From: Winogradskyella sp. KYW1333
GTDB taxonomy: Bacteria; Bacteroidota; Bacteroidia; Flavobacteriales; Flavobacteriaceae
Direction: 5' to 3'
NCBI RefSeq assembly: GCF_003335675.1
Contig: NZ_QPHL01000016.1
Span: forward strand, 124,001 to 188,000
DNA: 64,000 nucleotides
The stretch's first letter is position 1. Every line of letters starts with the position of its first letter. Both the position numbers and the translations under genes were made by a program. The notes beneath the pieces are model-generated. The model did no database searches. It was not told the origin of the DNA and saw only the letters and a program-made list of their open reading frames with translations. Below are positions 54,699 to 62,676 of this stretch, piece by piece.

Positions 54699-55298
54699 CT
54701 ATTTGTGTCTTTTCTTAAGGATTTCAACCACATCATTAAGTTTGAAACCTTTTGCCTGCAATAACATTAAATAGTGGAACAGGAGATCTGCACTTTCCTC
54801 AAGAAATAACTCGTCATTATTGTCTTTAGCCTCTATGACAACTTCCACAGCTTCCTCTCCTACTTTCTGAGCAACTTTATTAATGCCTTTTGCAAACAAG
54901 GAAGCTACATAAGATTTTTGAGAATCGGCATTTTCAATTCTAGATGATATCACATCTTCTAATTTTGAAATAAATCCAAAGTTTTGATTATTGTCCTCAT
55001 TCCAGCAAGTATCAGAACCTTTATGACAGGTCGGGCCTTCTGGTTTAGCAGAAACTAAAAGAGTATCGTTATCACAATCAAGTTTCATATCAACCAATTT
55101 TAACGCATTACCACTTTCTTCACCTTTTGTCCAAAGTCTATTCTTAGTACGACTGAAAAATGTTACTAGTCCAGATGATTTAGTTTTTTCTAATGCCTCA
55201 TTATTCATATAACCAAGCATCAAGACATTTTTAGTATTAGCATCTTGAATAATTGCTGGTACTAGACCATCTCCATTTTTTTTAAAATCTATGTTCAT
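54699..55298 (-). CDS. hisIE: Bifunctional PR-AMP cyclohydrolase / PR-ATP pyrophosphatase
   Basis: Catalyses steps 2 and 3 of histidine synthesis. Residues 1-105 are HisI, with the metal-binding DCDNDT and the Cys residues in [13 protein letters not shown]. Residues 110-199 are HisE ([19 protein letters not shown], then [14 protein letters not shown] and [14 protein letters not shown]). 199 residues is the usual length for the fusion. It is the last gene of the his operon, overlapping hisF by 4 bp. Confidence 0.96.
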
Positions 55299-56050
55299 AA
55301 CCGTACTTCTATATTTTGTTTCCTTAGTTCTTTTTTCAATTCTATAATTGGTATTTCACCAAAATGAAAAACACTCGCGGCCAATGCCGCATCAGCCTTG
55401 CCCTTTATAAAAGTATCTGCAAAGTGCTGAATGGTACCAGCGCCTCCAGATGCTATTATTGGTATGTTTACTAGCTCAGATAATTTAGCTAAGGCTCCAT
55501 TTGCAAATCCTGCTTTAGTCCCATCATGATTCATGGAAGTAAATAATATTTCACCTGCACCACGCTCTTCTACTTCCATAGCCCACTCGAACAGCCTAAT
55601 TTCTGTCGGAATCGTACCTCCTGCTAAATGTACAATCCACTCCTCACCTATTTTCTTGGCATCAATGGCTACAACCACGCATTGACTTCCAAACTTCTGA
55701 GAAATCTCATTAATAAGTTCTGGACGTTTAACTGCTGACGAATTAATAGATACTTTATCAGCACCACAATGTAATAAGTCATCCACATCTTCAACAGAGG
55801 ATATACCTCCACCAACTGTAAATGGGATATTAATTTGTTCTGCAACTTTTAATACCATATCGTGCATTGTTCTACGTCTCTCCTGTGTAGCAGATATATC
55901 TAAAAATACCAATTCATCAGCACCTAATTCAGCATATTGCTTTGCTAATTCCACCGGATTACCAGCGTCGCGCAAATCTACAAAGTTGACACCTTTTACA
56001 GTACGTCCATCTTTAATATCCAAACAAGGAACAATTCGTTTTGTAAGCAT
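55295..56050 (-). CDS. hisF: Imidazole glycerol phosphate synthase, cyclase subunit
   Basis: A 251-residue TIM barrel that makes imidazole glycerol phosphate and AICAR with ammonia supplied by HisH. It has [19 protein letters not shown] at residues 5-23 (catalytic Asp11) and the phosphate loops FTVGGGISS and IIASGGAG, with VVAIDAKK carrying the second catalytic Asp. It lies 2 bp after hisA and overlaps hisIE by 4 bp. Confidence 0.97.
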
Positions 56051-56052
56051 GT

Positions 56053-56778
56053 TTAATTATTTAAAATAAATTGCTCTAATTCTTTCAATGAAATTCTGTT
56101 CTCATATATGGCTTTACCAACAATAACTCCTTCACAACCCATCTCTGCTAATTGCGGTAATTCACTAAATTTTGAAATACCTCCAGAAGCAATCAGTTTA
56201 ATACCTTTTACATCATTTAAAATTCTTTTGTACAAGTCAAAGGAAGGTCCTTCAAGCATTCCATCTTTAGAAATATCTGTACAAATAACGTAAGACACAC
56301 CTTTAGTTTGGTAATCCCTTATAAATTGAATAACCTCTAAATCACTTTCTTCTTGCCAACCTGAAATGGCTATTTTTTCATTATTACAATCAGCACCAAG
56401 AATAATTTTATCTGAACCATATTTGGCAATCCAAGTCTCAAATACTTTTGGGTTTTTAACTGCAATACTTCCACCTGTTATTTGATTTGCACCAGATTCA
56501 AAAGCAATTCTTAAGTCGTTATCAGACTTTAATCCTCCACCAAAATCTATTTTTAGATTTGTTTTGCCAGCTATTGATTCTAGAACCTTGTAGTTTACAA
56601 TATGACTCGCTTTAGCGCCATCTAAATCAACAACATGTAAAAATTCAATTCCTGCGTCCTCAAATGATTTAGCCACTTCCAATGGATCTTCATTATATAC
56701 TTTTTTAGTATCGTAATCGCCCTTAGTTAAACGAACACACTGACCGTTAATAATATCTATTGCTGGTATTATCCTCAT
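56053..56778 (-). CDS. hisA: ProFAR isomerase
   Basis: A 241-residue TIM-barrel enzyme for the Amadori rearrangement in histidine synthesis. It has [20 protein letters not shown] with the catalytic Asp8, [11 protein letters not shown] and [17 protein letters not shown] with the second Asp, and [13 protein letters not shown]. It lies between hisH and hisF with 1- to 2-bp gaps. Confidence 0.97.
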
Positions 56779-56779
56779 T

Positions 56780-57361
56780 TTATAATTCTAAAAAGTTTTG
56801 TAGTAAGCGTGCACCTGCCTTTCCCGATTTCTCTGGGTGAAATTGTACTCCAAAGAAATTATCATTTTCTAATGCCGATGCATACTCGATTTCGTAATCA
56901 GATGTGGCGATACTTTCTTTACAATTTTCAGCATAATAGCTATGTACTAAATACATGTAGTCACCTTCATCTATATTTTTAAACAAGTCAGATTTTAGAT
57001 TTTTTACAGTATTCCAGCCCATTTGAGGAACCTTCACTTTATTTGAAAAACGTTTTACATCCGTGTGAAAAATACCAAGACCATTAGTGTCACCTTCTTC
57101 TGTATAATTACACATTAATTGCATTCCTAAGCATATGCCCAAGACCGGTTGCTTTAATTTAGGAATTAATCCATCTAAACCAGATTTTTTGAGCATTTTC
57201 ATAGCAGAACTAGCTTCACCTACTCCAGGAAATATAACTTTATCAGCTTTCAGAATTTCGTCTGCATCAAATGTTAAAACGGCATTAAAACCCAACCGCT
57301 GAAATGCAAATTGAATACTTTTTATGTTACCTGCACCGTAATTTACTATTCTAAGATCCAT
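56780..57361 (-). CDS. hisH: Imidazole glycerol phosphate synthase, glutaminase subunit
   Basis: A 193-residue class I glutamine amidotransferase. The catalytic Cys is in [10 protein letters not shown] (near residue 77), and the His and Glu are in [11 protein letters not shown] near the C terminus. It hands ammonia to HisF. The start [17 protein letters not shown] is typical. The ATG overlaps the stop of hisB by one base. Confidence 0.97.
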
Positions 57362-58494
57362 TACAACATTCCTTTAGTTGATGGCAAAATCATTTTATTT
57401 GCATCTTGTTTAACTGCCATTTTAATGGCTTTAGCAAAAGCTTTGAAAATCGCCTCAATCTTGTGATGCTCATTGTTGCCTTCAACTTTAACGTTTAAGT
57501 TACATTTAGCCCCATCTGTAAAGGATTTAAAAAAGTGATAGAACATTTCTGTTGGCATTTTACCAATCATTTCTCGTTTAAAATCTGCATCCCAAACGAG
57601 CCAGTTTCTACCTCCAAAATCAATAGCTACCTGAGCTAAACAATCATCCATTGGTAAGCAAAATCCATAGCGCTCTATACCAAGTTTATTCCCTAAAGTT
57701 GAAGCAAATACTTCTCCTAAGGCAATCGCCGTATCTTCTATAGTGTGGTGTTCGTCAACTTCTAAATCGCCAGCTACTTTAATATTTAAATCAATTTGAC
57801 CATGACGAGCAATCTGATCTAGCATATGGTCGAAAAATGCAATACCTGTGTCGACGCTACTTTTTCCTGTTCCATCTAAATTTAGATTAATCTTAATTTT
57901 AGTCTCATTAGTATTACGCTCAATAGAACCAACACGTTCAGTGGTCTTCAAAAATTCATAAATAGCTTCCCAGTCATTAGTTTCTAAAGCTATGTATTGT
58001 TGCAATTCGTTATTACTAACCGTCACTTCATCTGTCCCAAGATTCGTATTATCGTTAATAAATATTCCTCTTGCTCCCAAGTTTTTTGCTAATTCTATGT
58101 CAGTTAATCGATCACCTATAATATATGAATTAGTCAAATCATAATCTTCTGAAAAGTATTTGGTCAACAAACCTGTATTTGGTTTGCGCGTCGGTGCATT
58201 ATCCTTAGCAAATGTTCTATCAATAAACTGTTCTTTGAATACTACTCCTTCTTGTTCAAACGTTTTGATAACAAAATTATGAACTGGCCAAAACGTATCT
58301 TCCGGATACACTTCTGTACCAAGACCATCTTGATTTGTAATCATTACAATTTCAAAATTCAATTCCTCCGCAATCTTACTTAAGTATTGAAATACCTTCG
58401 GATAAAACTCTAGTTTTTCAAATGAATCTATTTGTTCGTCTGCTGGTTCTCTTATTAAGGTGCCGTCTCTATCTATAAATAATACAGGCTTCAT
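57361..58494 (-). CDS. hisB: Bifunctional histidinol-phosphatase / imidazoleglycerol-phosphate dehydratase
   Basis: Performs steps 6 and 8 of histidine synthesis. Residues 1-165 are the HAD-type phosphatase, with the nucleophile motif FIDRDGTLI and [15 protein letters not shown]. Residues 185-377 are the dehydratase, with the metal-binding [10 protein letters not shown] and [13 protein letters not shown] motifs and [13 protein letters not shown]. The fusion is shared with enteric bacteria and most Bacteroidota. It overlaps hisC by 4 bp. Confidence 0.97.
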
Positions 58495-59528
58495 GATAGT
58501 TGGTTTAATGTCCTAATTAATTTCTTGTTTTCTTCTTGTGTGCCAATGGTAAATCGCAAACAATTTTTACACAAAGGTTGTTTAGTTCTATTTCTAACTA
58601 CAATGCCGTTATCAATCAATTGTTTATAGCGAAGGTCTGCGTCATCTACTTTAGCTAACACAAAATTGGCATCTGATGGATAAATCGTCTTTATGAATGA
58701 AATACTGTTTAATTCAGTGATGAGTAAATCACGTTCTTTTAAAATTAAAGCTATCTGGTCCTCTACTTCATTAATTTCACTTAAACGTTCAAGTGCTTTA
58801 TATTGCGTTAGCTGATTCACATTATAAGGTGGTTTTATCTTATTAAGAACAGAAATAATAAATTCTGAAGCATAGCAAATTCCTAGCCTGATTCCGGCTA
58901 AGCCATAGGCTTTTGACAAGGTCTGGGTTACTACTAGATTTGAAAATTCATTTAGTCTACCAAGCCAACTCTCTTGCGATGAAAAATCGATATAGGCTTC
59001 ATCAACAACTACAATGCCATTGAATTTTCTGATTAACTGTTCTATCTTTTTAGAATTAAAGCTATTTGCTGTTGGATTGTTTGGTGAACACAAGAACAAC
59101 AACTTAGAATTACCATTCTGAACAGCAAGAATTTCATCAACTTTTGGTTCAAAATCATTATCTAATTCTACCGAAATGATGTCAACAGCATTTAAAACAG
59201 CCAACACTTTATACATTCCATAAGTTGGTGGCAAAGTGATAACATTATCGTTATTAGGTTCGCAAAACGCTCTAACAATAAGATCCAGAACTTCGTCACT
59301 ACCATTACCTAAAAGGATTTGAGTTGTAGAAACACCTTTGACTTCCGCCAATCGTTGCTTCACATCCGTTTGTTGAGGGTCTGGATAACGATTTACGTTG
59401 GTCTTAAACGGATTCTCGTTGGCATCAATAAAGACCATATCAGAGGAAGCATCTTTATATTCATCCCTTGCAGAAGAATAGGCTTTAATAGTCTTAATAT
59501 TTTCTCGTAAAAGATTTTCTATTTTCAT
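58491..59528 (-). CDS. hisC: Histidinol-phosphate aminotransferase
   Basis: A 345-residue PLP enzyme of class I/II aminotransferases. The Schiff-base lysine is in [16 protein letters not shown] (near residue 208). [23 protein letters not shown] and VVDEAYIDF are the other cofactor contacts. The C-terminal [13 protein letters not shown] with its Arg binds the substrate carboxylate or phosphate. It overlaps both hisD and hisB by 4 bp. Confidence 0.96.
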
Positions 59529-60811
59529 GATTCTAAATCTTTTAAACGCAATGTCACTGCATTTTTGTGTGCTTGTAATCCTTCTGCTTCCGCCATTAAC
59601 TCTATAGCTGGCCCGATATTTTTTATACCTCTTTGGGAAATTTTCTGAAAGGTCATACTCTTTTGGAAACTGTCTAGATTTACTCCTGAATATGCCTTAG
59701 AAAACCCATTTGTTGGTAAGGTATGATTTGTACCAGAAGCATAATCTCCAGCACTTTCTGGTGTATAATTACCAATAAAAACTGAACCTGCATTTCCGAT
59801 GTTCTCAACAAAAAAGTCATCATTATTTGTAGCAACAATGAAATGCTCTGGCCCATATTCATTAATTAATTCTAATGCTGTCTTGAGGTCCTCTACAACA
59901 ATTGATTTAGAATTATTTATAGCATCAGTAGCCATTTGTTTTCTTGGCAAAACTTCAAGTTGAGACTCAACTTCAGAATTAACCTGTTCGGCAAACTTTT
60001 TTGACGTAGTAACTAAAATCACCTGACTGTCTGAACCATGTTCAGCCTGACTTAGCAAGTCTGAAGCCACATAAGCAGGATTAGCCGATTCATCTGCCAC
60101 TACTAGTAACTCACTAGGTCCTGCAGGCATATCTATAGCTACACCATATTTGGTAGCAATTTGTTTTGCAACTGTTACATATTGGTTTCCTGGGCCAAAA
60201 ATTTTATAAACCTGAGGAATAGATTCTGTACCAAATGTAAGACCTGCAATAGCCTGAATACCACCAACCTTTATAATTTTAGTGACACCACATAGTTTAG
60301 CTGTGTATAATATTTCATCGGCTATCTTACCTTCACTATTAGGTGGTGAGCACAAAACGATTTCGCCACAACCAGCAATATTTGCAGGAATAGCCAGCAT
60401 TAAAACTGTTGAAAATAATGGTGCAGTGCCACCTGGAATGTAAAGACCAACTTTCTGAATAGGTCTTTTCTCTTGCCAGCATTTAACTCCTCTCATTGTT
60501 TTCAGAAAGACCTTATCCGTTTGCTGTGCTTTATGAAATTGTTTTATATTTTTCTTAGCAAGCTTAATTGCTTTCTTCAAGTCTTTGGAAACACGCTCTG
60601 ACGCTTCTTCTATTTCAGTTTTAGTAACTTCTATATTGTCTAGCCCAACGTTGTCAAAATCAGCAGTAAAAGACTTAATTGCATAATCACCATTAGCTTT
60701 AACAGCTTTAAAAACGTCATTAACTAAATTCTCAATATCACCGACAGATATTGTAGGCCGACTCAATATTTCCGACCATTCACTTCGCTTTGGATTTTCG
60801 ATCAGCTTCAT
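59525..60811 (-). CDS. hisD: Histidinol dehydrogenase
   Basis: A zinc and NAD-dependent enzyme for the last two oxidations. I start it at the ATG at 60811 (428 residues, MKLIENPKRSEW), one base after the hisG stop. The open frame extends to an ATG at 60880, but those extra 23 residues lie inside hisG and are unlike the family. Signatures: IGKIFGPGNQ-type YKIFGPGNQYVTVAKQIA, AEHGSDSQVILVT, YGPEHFIVAT and SVFIGNYTPESAGDYASGTN. Confidence 0.96.
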   Translation of the reverse strand: MKLIENPKRSEWSEILSRPTISVGDIENLVNDVFKAVKANGDYAIKSFTADFDNVGLDNIEVTKTEIEEASERVSKDLKKAIKLAKKNIKQFHKAQQTDKVFLKTMRGVKCWQEKRPIQKVGLYIPGGTAPLFSTVLMLAIPANIAGCGEIVLCSPPNSEGKIADEILYTAKLCGVTKIIKVGGIQAIAGLTFGTESIPQVYKIFGPGNQYVTVAKQIATKYGVAIDMPAGPSELLVVADESANPAYVASDLLSQAEHGSDSQVILVTTSKKFAEQVNSEVESQLEVLPRKQMATDAINNSKSIVVEDLKTALELINEYGPEHFIVATNNDDFFVENIGNAGSVFIGNYTPESAGDYASGTNHTLPTNGFSKAYSGVNLDSFQKSMTFQKISQRGIKNIGPAIELMAEAEGLQAHKNAVTLRLKDLES

Positions 60812-60812
60812 A

Positions 60813-61670
60813 CTACAATACCATATTTTCAATTGGACATACAAGAATACCTTCAGCACCATTGGCTTTAAGTTCATCAATCACATTCCAGAAATCATTC
60901 TTATTGATTACAGAGTGCAAAGAACTCCATCCTTTTTTTGCCAATGGTAAAATCGTTGGACTATTCATACCAGGAAGTATATCTACTATGTTTTCTAGTT
61001 TGTCATTTGGCGCATTAAGCAGAACATATTTATTTTCTCTACCTCTTAACACTGATTTTAATCTAAATTGTATCTTATCAATTATCGCTTGATTCTCTTC
61101 AGAAATTTTTGGAGAAGTTGCTAATACAGCTTCAGATTTTAAAAGGACCTCAATCTCCTTTAATCCGTTTTTAAATAAGGTACTTCCACTAGAAACGATA
61201 TCACAAATTCCATCCGCCAACCCAATATTTGGTGCGATTTCAACAGAACCATTGATGATATGCAAGTTTGCTTTTATACCCTCTTTTTCTAAGATCTGAT
61301 TAACCGTATTTGGATAAGATGTTGCAATCCTTTTTCCTTCTAAATCTTTTAAGTTTTTAGCACCAGAAGATTTGGGAACAGCAATGGATACTCGACACTT
61401 TGAAAATCCAAGTTTTTCAATAATTACTATATTCTTTCCTTTTTCTATTAATACATTCTCACCGATTATAGCTGCATCTACGACGCCATCCTTTAGATAT
61501 TGAGGAATATCTCCATTTCTAAGGTAAAAGACCTCTAAAGGGAAGTTTCGAGCAGAGGCTTTTAATTGATCCTTACCATTATCAATGGAAATCCCAATTT
61601 GTTTTAATATTCTTAAAGAATCTTCGTTTAGTCTTCCAGACTTTTGTACCGCAATTTTTAATTTATTCAT
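60813..61670 (-). CDS. hisG: ATP phosphoribosyltransferase, long form
   Basis: First, committed step of histidine synthesis; normally feedback-inhibited by histidine. 285 residues is the long form, with two catalytic domains and a C-terminal ACT-like regulatory domain (residues 210-285), so HisZ is not needed. It has IAVQKSGRLNEDSLRILKQ at the start, VDAAIIGENVL, ISTSYPN-like IATSYPNTVNQIL and DGICDIVSSGSTLFKNGLKE (phosphoribosyl loop). It is preceded by a leader peptide and attenuator. Confidence 0.97.
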   Translation of the reverse strand: MNKLKIAVQKSGRLNEDSLRILKQIGISIDNGKDQLKASARNFPLEVFYLRNGDIPQYLKDGVVDAAIIGENVLIEKGKNIVIIEKLGFSKCRVSIAVPKSSGAKNLKDLEGKRIATSYPNTVNQILEKEGIKANLHIINGSVEIAPNIGLADGICDIVSSGSTLFKNGLKEIEVLLKSEAVLATSPKISEENQAIIDKIQFRLKSVLRGRENKYVLLNAPNDKLENIVDILPGMNSPTILPLAKKGWSSLHSVINKNDFWNVIDELKANGAEGILVCPIENMVL

Positions 61671-61709
61671 TTCTATTTTAGTTGGTCTGAGAACATCGCA
61701 TTAGTTCAT

Positions 61710-61746
61710 AAAAAAACCCGCTTGATATTCTCAAACGGGTTTTTTA
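61710..61746 (-). terminator. Attenuator terminator of the his operon
   Basis: Minus-strand hairpin AACCCGTTTGA / TCAAGCGGGTT with a T run of seven. It lies between the leader-peptide stop (61773) and the hisG ATG (61670). The 5' arm can instead pair with upstream sequence (61751-61757 and 61761-61765), forming an antiterminator. Confidence 0.85.
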
Positions 61747-61773
61747 ATATTTTGAAACTAATCAACACATCAT
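61722..61773 (-). promoter_or_regulatory. Antiterminator and leader stem of the his attenuator
   Basis: On the minus strand TTGAT (61761-61765) and TTTCAAA (61751-61757) can pair with TTTGAGA (61729-61735) and ATCAA (61722-61726), a 12-bp structure that excludes the terminator. Competing with it, ATGATGT (61767-61773) can pair with ACATCAT over His codons 6 and 7 of the leader (61803-61809). A ribosome stalled on those codons would open the latter and favour the antiterminator. Pairings are read by eye. Confidence 0.65.
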
Positions 61774-61823
61774 TACCTCGCCTGAGCGACTAAATGAAAA
61801 CGATGATGTAAATGCTTCTTCAT
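61773..61823 (-). CDS. hisL: Histidine operon leader peptide
   Basis: A 16-codon frame, ATG at 61823, stop TAA at 61773-61775, translating to MKKHLHHRFHLVAQAR. Four of 16 codons are His (positions 4, 6, 7 and 10, all CAT). It is followed by mutually exclusive antiterminator and terminator hairpins and then hisG, exactly the layout of transcription attenuation by histidyl-tRNA supply. Confidence 0.85.
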   Translation of the reverse strand: MKKHLHHRFHLVAQAR

Positions 61824-61827
61824 TTGA

Positions 61828-61835
61828 CAAAAGTA
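61828..61835 (-). promoter_or_regulatory. Putative -7 element of the his operon
   Basis: Minus-strand TACTTTTG matches TAnnTTTG. Its 3' end is only 4 nt from the leader-peptide ATG, so transcription would begin at or next to that ATG. Either the leader peptide is translated from a leaderless mRNA or the true promoter is elsewhere. Confidence 0.45.
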
Positions 61836-61875
61836 ATTAATATTTAATTATGACTATTAATTAAAATTATAAAAT

Positions 61876-62676
61876 TTACATAAATTGATTATTTACTCTG
61901 GACGATCTCATATTTTTGAGAATAACTTTAAATTCGCCATTCAGCAGGAGTTTCTTGAAGGTTTTATACTTTAATTTTGCTTTATGCCAAAGCGCTAGAA
62001 GTCTATAATAGTAGTAATATCTGTAATATTTATTTTTTATGACATCCGCATCATTTTTAAAATAAGTTATATTTTTATTTAAGATAATTAAATTTCTTTC
62101 TAATTCCGTTTTATTGCAGACATGTAAAAATAATGCCTCATCCATATTATGAAGACCATAAATACAATTGAGTTGGTTGGGATCATGTATTTTAATTTGT
62201 TCTCTATATTTTGGTAATATATAATCGGCCATTATTTTTTGCTCAAAAGGAAAGGGACAATTAAATCTTTTAGAATATACCTCTTTTTCTAAAGGAATGG
62301 CTTTGCGATTAACAATTTTCACCCCTGTATTAACCGGATAATCCCAAGGTTTTTCGTGAAAAAGATGATAAAGTATACGGAAATCACTTAAGTCTATACA
62401 GGATTCAATTGGTTGGCTTAACATTTTTGGATATATATCGGTATCTAACCAAATATACCACTCCACATTAGGGAATTTTTCTTGTGCTTTACAGAGAATT
62501 AAACAGCGCCTAAAATGTAGTTCAGAAACTTCCAAAGGTACTTCTGTTTCATCGTCATAATACAATTCGTAATTATGATTTTTGCAGTATTCAATTAAGA
62601 GCTTTTTAGTTAATTCTGTGAAGAAAACACCCTTCGGATAATGGCCGGAAACAATACAAATTTTGCCAGAAGTCAT
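61876..62676 (-). CDS. Glycosyltransferase-like protein (GT34/GMA12-type)
   Basis: A 266-residue soluble protein. The nucleotide-sugar-binding DxD is D78-x-D80 in WYIWLDTDIYPKM. PVNTGVKIVNRK near residue 114 and EQKIMADYILPKY near residue 144 fit the GT34-like fold seen in galactosyltransferases of the GMA12/MNN10 type. The last 60 residues are basic and Tyr-rich (KNKYYRYYYYYRLLALWHKA), perhaps for membrane association. Donor and acceptor are unknown, and no capsule or O-antigen cluster surrounds it. It is upstream of the his leader on the same strand. Confidence 0.65.
   Translation of the reverse strand: MTSGKICIVSGHYPKGVFFTELTKKLLIEYCKNHNYELYYDDETEVPLEVSELHFRRCLILCKAQEKFPNVEWYIWLDTDIYPKMLSQPIESCIDLSDFRILYHLFHEKPWDYPVNTGVKIVNRKAIPLEKEVYSKRFNCPFPFEQKIMADYILPKYREQIKIHDPNQLNCIYGLHNMDEALFLHVCNKTELERNLIILNKNITYFKNDADVIKNKYYRYYYYYRLLALWHKAKLKYKTFKKLLLNGEFKVILKNMRSSRVNNQFM

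Follow-up and report, generated by a model that had tools for sequence, protein, structure and literature searches.

A predicted ribosome-mediated his attenuator in Flavobacteriales and a possible second contact with the hisG start region

The enteric his attenuator (RF00514, His_leader) operates by the logic of the stalled ribosome, and the locus discussed here shares with it a His-codon leader, an intrinsic terminator before hisG and, by prediction, that logic. A comparative study of proteobacterial attenuation from 2004 reportedly may mention Bacteroidetes as well. For F. psychrophilum, a structured 5' element upstream of hisG was described in 2021, which occurs in other Flavobacteriaceae genera too and has no Rfam hit, and the same paper reports strong clues to attenuation by leader peptides ahead of amino-acid operons (PMC9723704). 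The leader of the window, i.e., the whole 64,000-nucleotide stretch of Winogradskyella sp. KYW1333 DNA that was analysed, resembles that element in being structured and situated 5' of hisG; the pairings termed A:C and C:D below belong to the window and are absent from the section of that paper on the hisG element. As far as these sections of PMC9723704 go, the core of the attenuator is therefore already known. The C:D pairing, a helix running from the terminator to the start of hisG, appears from the sequence to be the new part, and no description of such a helix was found in open-licence PMC papers.

We consider it quite probable that transcription of the his operon is attenuated here in a ribosome-mediated manner and that the leader makes a second contact, with the start region of hisG. 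As a prediction, the ribosome-mediated attenuator is well supported; comparison and folding speak for the leader, for the terminator, for A:C as the alternative pairing and for the C:D helix as such.

Leader, terminator and his operon

The operon 3' of the leader is a complete hisGDCBHAFIE, as judged from NCBIfam matches and the ORFs of the window. hisG is situated at 60813..61670 on the minus strand (TIGR00070, start at 61670), and hisD, hisC, hisB, hisH, hisA, hisF and hisIE occupy 54699..60880 on the same strand. Among the best 80 of 515 relatives, the named HisG nearest to that of the window is from W. tangerina, with 92% identity. The operon is preceded by a short ORF rich in codons for its own product, histidine, namely MKKHLHHRFHLVAQAR with its stop codon (61773..61823, minus strand; ATG 61823-61821, TAA 61775-61773), in which four of the 16 codons are His codons (61814-61812, 61808-61803 and 61796-61794). 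This ORF and a T-tailed terminator 5' of hisG had been described in the initial annotation, all letters and coordinates of which proved correct when re-read from the minus strand of the window, including those of TTGAT (61765-61761), TTTCAAA (61757-61751), TTTGAGA (61735-61729) and ATCAA (61726-61722). The parts that it named are present, while two segments, A and D, had been missed.

The octamer TACTTTTG (61828..61835, minus strand) ends 4 nt 5' of the leader ATG, and we take it to be a fit to the Bacteroidota -7 promoter motif TAnnTTTG. The gap of 4 nt between TTTG and the leader ATG is the shortest in 126 loci, with 14-22 nt found in 99 of them and 6-9 nt in 10. Judged from this motif gap only, the leader mRNA in the window may be leaderless or nearly so. 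Further 5' of the leader, a same-strand ORF (61876-62676) has no NCBIfam match at 1e-10.

The His-rich frame, whose conservation had been suggested as a check of the initial annotation, is kept in relatives. All 80 named loci of the near set (L031-L110) have, 5' of hisG, a short ORF containing three or more His codons; this set consists of the best 80 of 515 relatives and is thus biased to close ones. Such a leader is also present at all 44 loci chosen in addition from the same family (L111-L154). Loci L155-L190, two of which are labelled as the same genus and the others of which come from different families and classes, contain it in 24 of 36 cases under a stricter rule than that applied to L111-L154. 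The typical leader peptide in relatives is MTFIQLHHHHFHTCTQAS. No His leader was found by rule at the two loci from 600-kb genomes, presumably those of endosymbionts. Loci L001-L030, which by their coordinates apparently come mostly from the same genomes as L031-L110, were left out. The set of 126 loci comprises the window, L031-L110 and those 45 of L111-L170 that have CGTTTGA; the other 15 of L111-L170 were tested separately. The distant set of 36 loci includes 12 that have no leader by rule and three that have no terminator, so that 21 were analysed, one of which (L158) belongs to the 126-locus set too. A later sample of 40 loci includes four with no leader by rule (L272, L273, L276 and L293) and one with no terminator (L260); the 35 analysed are 17 from outside the family and 18 from inside. 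We also note that the HisG of L155 and L156, labelled as the same genus, and of L170, labelled as the same phylum only, is just 61-66% identical to that of the window, and that their terminator arms are CGTCTGA-like. The his operon and leader of these three loci may have moved horizontally.

The intrinsic terminator between the leader and the first gene, which is predicted and comparative in its basis, consists of a hairpin and a run of seven T (61710..61745, minus strand; -17.5 kcal/mol in the window). Its 5' arm holds segment C, CGTTTGAG (61730..61737, minus strand), for which three partners come into question, namely A, the terminator 3' arm and D. The motif C[CT]GTTTGA is present in this arm in 81/81 near sequences. 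In an alignment of 119 sequences, 99.9% of the pair cells of the terminator are paired, and its covariation is clear, with a score of 0.182 vs 0.118 in shuffled alignments and 31 vs 3.4 cells changed on both sides. A generic terminator scan gave no terminator in the window, which we read as a consequence of its rule, as it needs a T run after the stem and the stem here can extend into the T run.

The A:C antiterminator and the position of the ribosome

Segment A, CTCAGGCG (61779..61786, minus strand), comprises the Gln and Ala codons at the end of the leader and was recognised by pairing, folding and comparison as the 5' arm of an antiterminator, in which it pairs with C in the 5' arm of the terminator. 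Between the two lies an inner hairpin, TGATGT.TTGA / TCAA.ATATTA (61745..61772, minus strand), supported by folding and alignment and closed by TTGA/TCAA, so that it contains the 5' part of the antiterminator proposed in the initial annotation. At 93% of 122 loci, the hairpin between A and C folds better than the mean of its own shuffles (mean z -1.89). A is mostly CTCAAGCG, and 7-8 of the 8 A:C positions are paired in 81/81 near sequences. All 81 have the Ala codon GCG inside A, a codon that makes up 68 of 844 Ala codons in the long ORFs of the window. At L119 and L130, the leader stops at the position of the conserved Gln codon and A lies outside the peptide; the A:C pairing is kept beyond the stop, which points to selection on the RNA.

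Within the family, the antiterminator is 92.0% paired in 119 aligned loci, an alignment from which L100, L105, L141 and L146 were dropped for want of a scorable A and in which three identical rows were merged. Its covariation score is 0.081 vs 0.069 shuffled, and 19 cells vs 8.6 are changed on both sides. Two of five measures, pairs with both-side change and further pair types, lie within the shuffles (reached by 129 and 188 of 500), and sliding the register by -1 and -2 gives 28 and 25 both-side cells, more than the 19 in the true register; within-family covariation of the antiterminator is therefore weak support. Among the distant loci, 16 of 21 show a pairing between the end of the leader and the 5' arm of the terminator that exceeds shuffles (p<=0.05), often with different letters; at L163, for example, GGTAGGCT pairs with GGCTTACC in the same scheme. 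The later sample behaves likewise at 13/17 loci outside the family and at 9/18 inside.

Folding was carried out for the RNA present before the CGG arm of the terminator emerges, and again for an RNA extended through TCAA, which belongs to the ATCAA of the pairing in the initial annotation. With the ribosome on the second His codon, A:C dominates in 81/81 near sequences in both RNAs; with the ribosome on the last His codon of the run, this is so in 80/81 (74/81 extended). Without a ribosome, C is held by A in 32/81 (27/81 extended), and with the ribosome at the leader stop, A:C is found in 0/81. The antiterminator is thus, by computation, exclusive and dependent on the position of the ribosome, with the weak covariation described above. 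The window is one of those in which the ribosome-free RNA forms A:C, so that termination there needs a translating ribosome. Once the terminator 3' arm is present, the terminator beats A:C at equilibrium in every ribosome state (A:C 0/81), which means that the decision of the switch must be kinetic.

With enough histidine, the ribosome would reach the leader stop and cover segment A, C would pair with the terminator 3' arm, and transcription would end at the T run. With little histidine, the ribosome would stall on the His codons and leave A free, A:C would form around the inner hairpin, the terminator would be blocked, and the his operon would be transcribed. The proposal that the His-codon leader and the terminator form a ribosome-mediated attenuator, made when the locus was annotated, is therefore supported by comparison and predicted folds. 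The antiterminator proposed at the same time, in which TTGAT and TTTCAAA downstream of the leader stop pair with the terminator, is a different matter, and we regard it as highly improbable. The complementarity is present in the window, TTGA/TCAA is largely conserved, and with the ribosome at the stop the pairing can form in the window (0.64, extended 0.44). This is the wrong state, in which the pairing is dominant in 12/81 sequences, the window included (3/81 extended). With a stalled ribosome, it is dominant in 0/81, with or without the ATCAA part; the folds choose A:C instead. The 6-nt pairing is not above cross-species shuffles either (5.05 vs 5.18), and on these grounds the proposal was rejected. 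In four Tenacibaculum loci (L064, L071, L093 and L094) the letters of its B strand are changed, with A and C retained. A further suggestion, that ATGATGT after the stop pairs with the His codons, receives modest comparative support (7.14 vs 6.82 in cross-species shuffles), although the ribosome-free fold of the window is still A:C.

The C:D helix and the start of hisG

Segment D, GATGTTCTCAGAC (61685..61697, minus strand), forms 13 of 13 pairs, two of them G-U, with GTTTGAGAATATC of the terminator. Its place is ~14-15 nt 5' of the hisG ATG (about -28 to -15), and its partner extends from the G of the terminator 5' arm through the loop, so that the pairing starts from 61736 of C and takes in the terminator loop; the common form is GTTTGAGTAAATC with GATTTACTCAAAC. 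D was seen by eye in upstream sequences and tested afterwards. It was taken as the best match at each locus, a choice that favours register 0 in the tree test and the subset of strong-D loci in the loop test; in the comparisons with other species and with reversed or complemented C, the controls were given the same choice.

D matches its own terminator with a score of 10.62, vs 8.62 for those of other species (maximum 9.03 of 200), and this preference is repeated in 45 other loci (8.94 vs 7.22). A strong D is present in 80/126 loci, compared with 3 for reversed C and 0 for complemented C; D is intermediate in 22/126 and weak or absent in 24/126. In the 80 strong-D loci, the four variable loop positions are 94-95% paired vs 46-66% shuffled, and pairing ends sharply on both sides. 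On a hisG tree of 81 loci, compensatory changes on both sides of C:D occur on 25 branches, compared with 0-6 in slid registers, while a single side changes on 72 branches, and a pair is lost on 71 and regained on 22. Under a laxer rule than that used within the family, with five window offsets tried, D reaches p<=0.05 in 7 of the 21 distant loci (one of them L158) and is not significant or not testable in 14. Under the same rule, the later sample passes in 15/17 loci outside the family, which come from 3 families and 6 genera, one genus supplying 7 of them, and are not 15 independent events; inside the family 13/18 pass and 5/18 remain below the threshold. The reversed control reaches the threshold in 1/17 and 0/18, respectively.

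The length of the UTR was rejected as a simple cause of D loss, as the medians are alike (109 and 110.5 nt) and D-less loci are shorter or longer than usual. The terminator loop is mostly 5 nt long, and its length gives no clean division between loci that have D and loci that lack it. Short hairpin repeats of the type AAAGATTCCTGCTTTCTCAGGAA are situated between D and hisG at L047, L050, L063, L065, L076, L079, L098 and L104, which are 8 of the 10 loci with a D-to-AUG distance of >30 nt.

From these sequences we infer that C:D may add control of translation to that of transcription. In a read-through mRNA whose C is free of A, the loop and the upper part of the terminator 5' arm would pair with D and hinder initiation at hisG. 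Leaked or stale his mRNA would thereby be silenced, and translation would obey the same ribosome signal as transcription. It is quite possible, though we propose it only tentatively, that the whole is a two-layer, leak-proof attenuator, in which the terminator loop and upper 5' arm reach the hisG translation start and the leader ribosome, stalled or finished, governs the transcription of his mRNA as well as its translation in Flavobacteriales, which have no Shine-Dalgarno sequences. Equilibrium folding is against C:D, as nested folding of the read-through RNA gives it 0.03 vs 0.97 for the terminator, and a kinetic or pseudoknot state is therefore assumed; the lower stem combined with loop:D comes to -16.2, compared with -15.6 for the full hairpin, before any pseudoknot penalty.

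The position of D bears on whether the helix acts on initiation or, as an unlikely alternative, on the stability or cleavage of read-through his mRNA, which it would protect or process. Being 13 bp long and placed in the 5' UTR, the helix could serve as an RNase substrate or be protective, and inside the family the D-to-AUG distance is no tighter than the C-to-D distance (10-90% ranges 15-35 vs 25-44), as this alternative would allow. At the 15 positive loci outside the family, however, D is fixed to the start codon (13-21 nt, sd 2.9 nt) and not to the terminator (16-48 nt in two clusters, 16-20 and 39-48; sd 13.4 nt), so that there D goes with the hisG start. The same covariation and a D near hisG would also be expected if the terminated leader RNA paired in trans with D on his mRNA and repressed it, in the manner of rnTrpL, a trans-acting attenuator RNA, and the loop of mostly 5 nt could seed such pairing. 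C is nevertheless locked in a hairpin of about -16 kcal/mol in the terminated RNA, and a copy in cis is always present, which make this version decidedly unlikely. That C and D form an inverted repeat serving as a protein site on the DNA, with no RNA helix, is barely credible. The inverted repeat itself exists, and 110 departures of D from the perfect complement are transversions; the transitions, on the other hand, favour G-U pairs with C, as a paired sense RNA predicts (A>G 69 and C>T 56 vs G>A 17 and T>C 7, counts not normalised for base composition). Control of hisG initiation by C:D in cis remains our preferred, tentative reading.

Relation to known leaders

The present analysis carries the his attenuator into a phylum in which little of it has been described, corrects the switching strands, and points to a conserved helix that links the terminator and the hisG start codon. 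If this helix does control initiation, it would deal with attenuator leakage in a compact way and offer a handle on translational control in bacteria that lack Shine-Dalgarno sequences.

In contrast to the enteric his attenuator, the switching segment here is inside the last leader codons and there is an extra helix with D. The window scores 31.5 bits with RF00514, below the cut-off of 49, and no match over the cut-off was obtained in 148 Bacteroidota genomes searched with stricter filters. The description of the locus as having all parts of the classical enteric attenuator was accordingly too strong.

Bacteroid-trp RNA (RF01692), a known motif listed in PMC2864571, is also a leader of an amino-acid operon in Bacteroidota, but regulates trp. 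It scores over the cut-off in 29 of 31 genomes of the genus, including that of the window (on another contig, C5), and the 25 matches at E<=10 in 61200-62400, around the his locus, do not include it. In Bacteroid-trp loci, the leader-end segment matches the terminator by eye, as in the his leader; in contrast, no D-like segment is seen by eye in four of them, and the next start follows within ~40 nt of the T run. Loci of the genus (L226, L236, L244 and L201), upstream of PDT/pheA, ilvD and trp genes, have Phe/Tyr-rich, Ile-rich and Trp-rich leaders with terminators, the 5' arm or loop of which seems, by eye, to match the leader end in a his-like scheme.

The trp leader of Bacillus is bound by TRAP and contains a hairpin that blocks the trpE Shine-Dalgarno sequence. 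As proposed for the his leader, a single leader there controls termination as well as the translation of the first gene; the Bacillus leader is sensed by a protein and has a different fold, whereas the his leader would be sensed by the ribosome.
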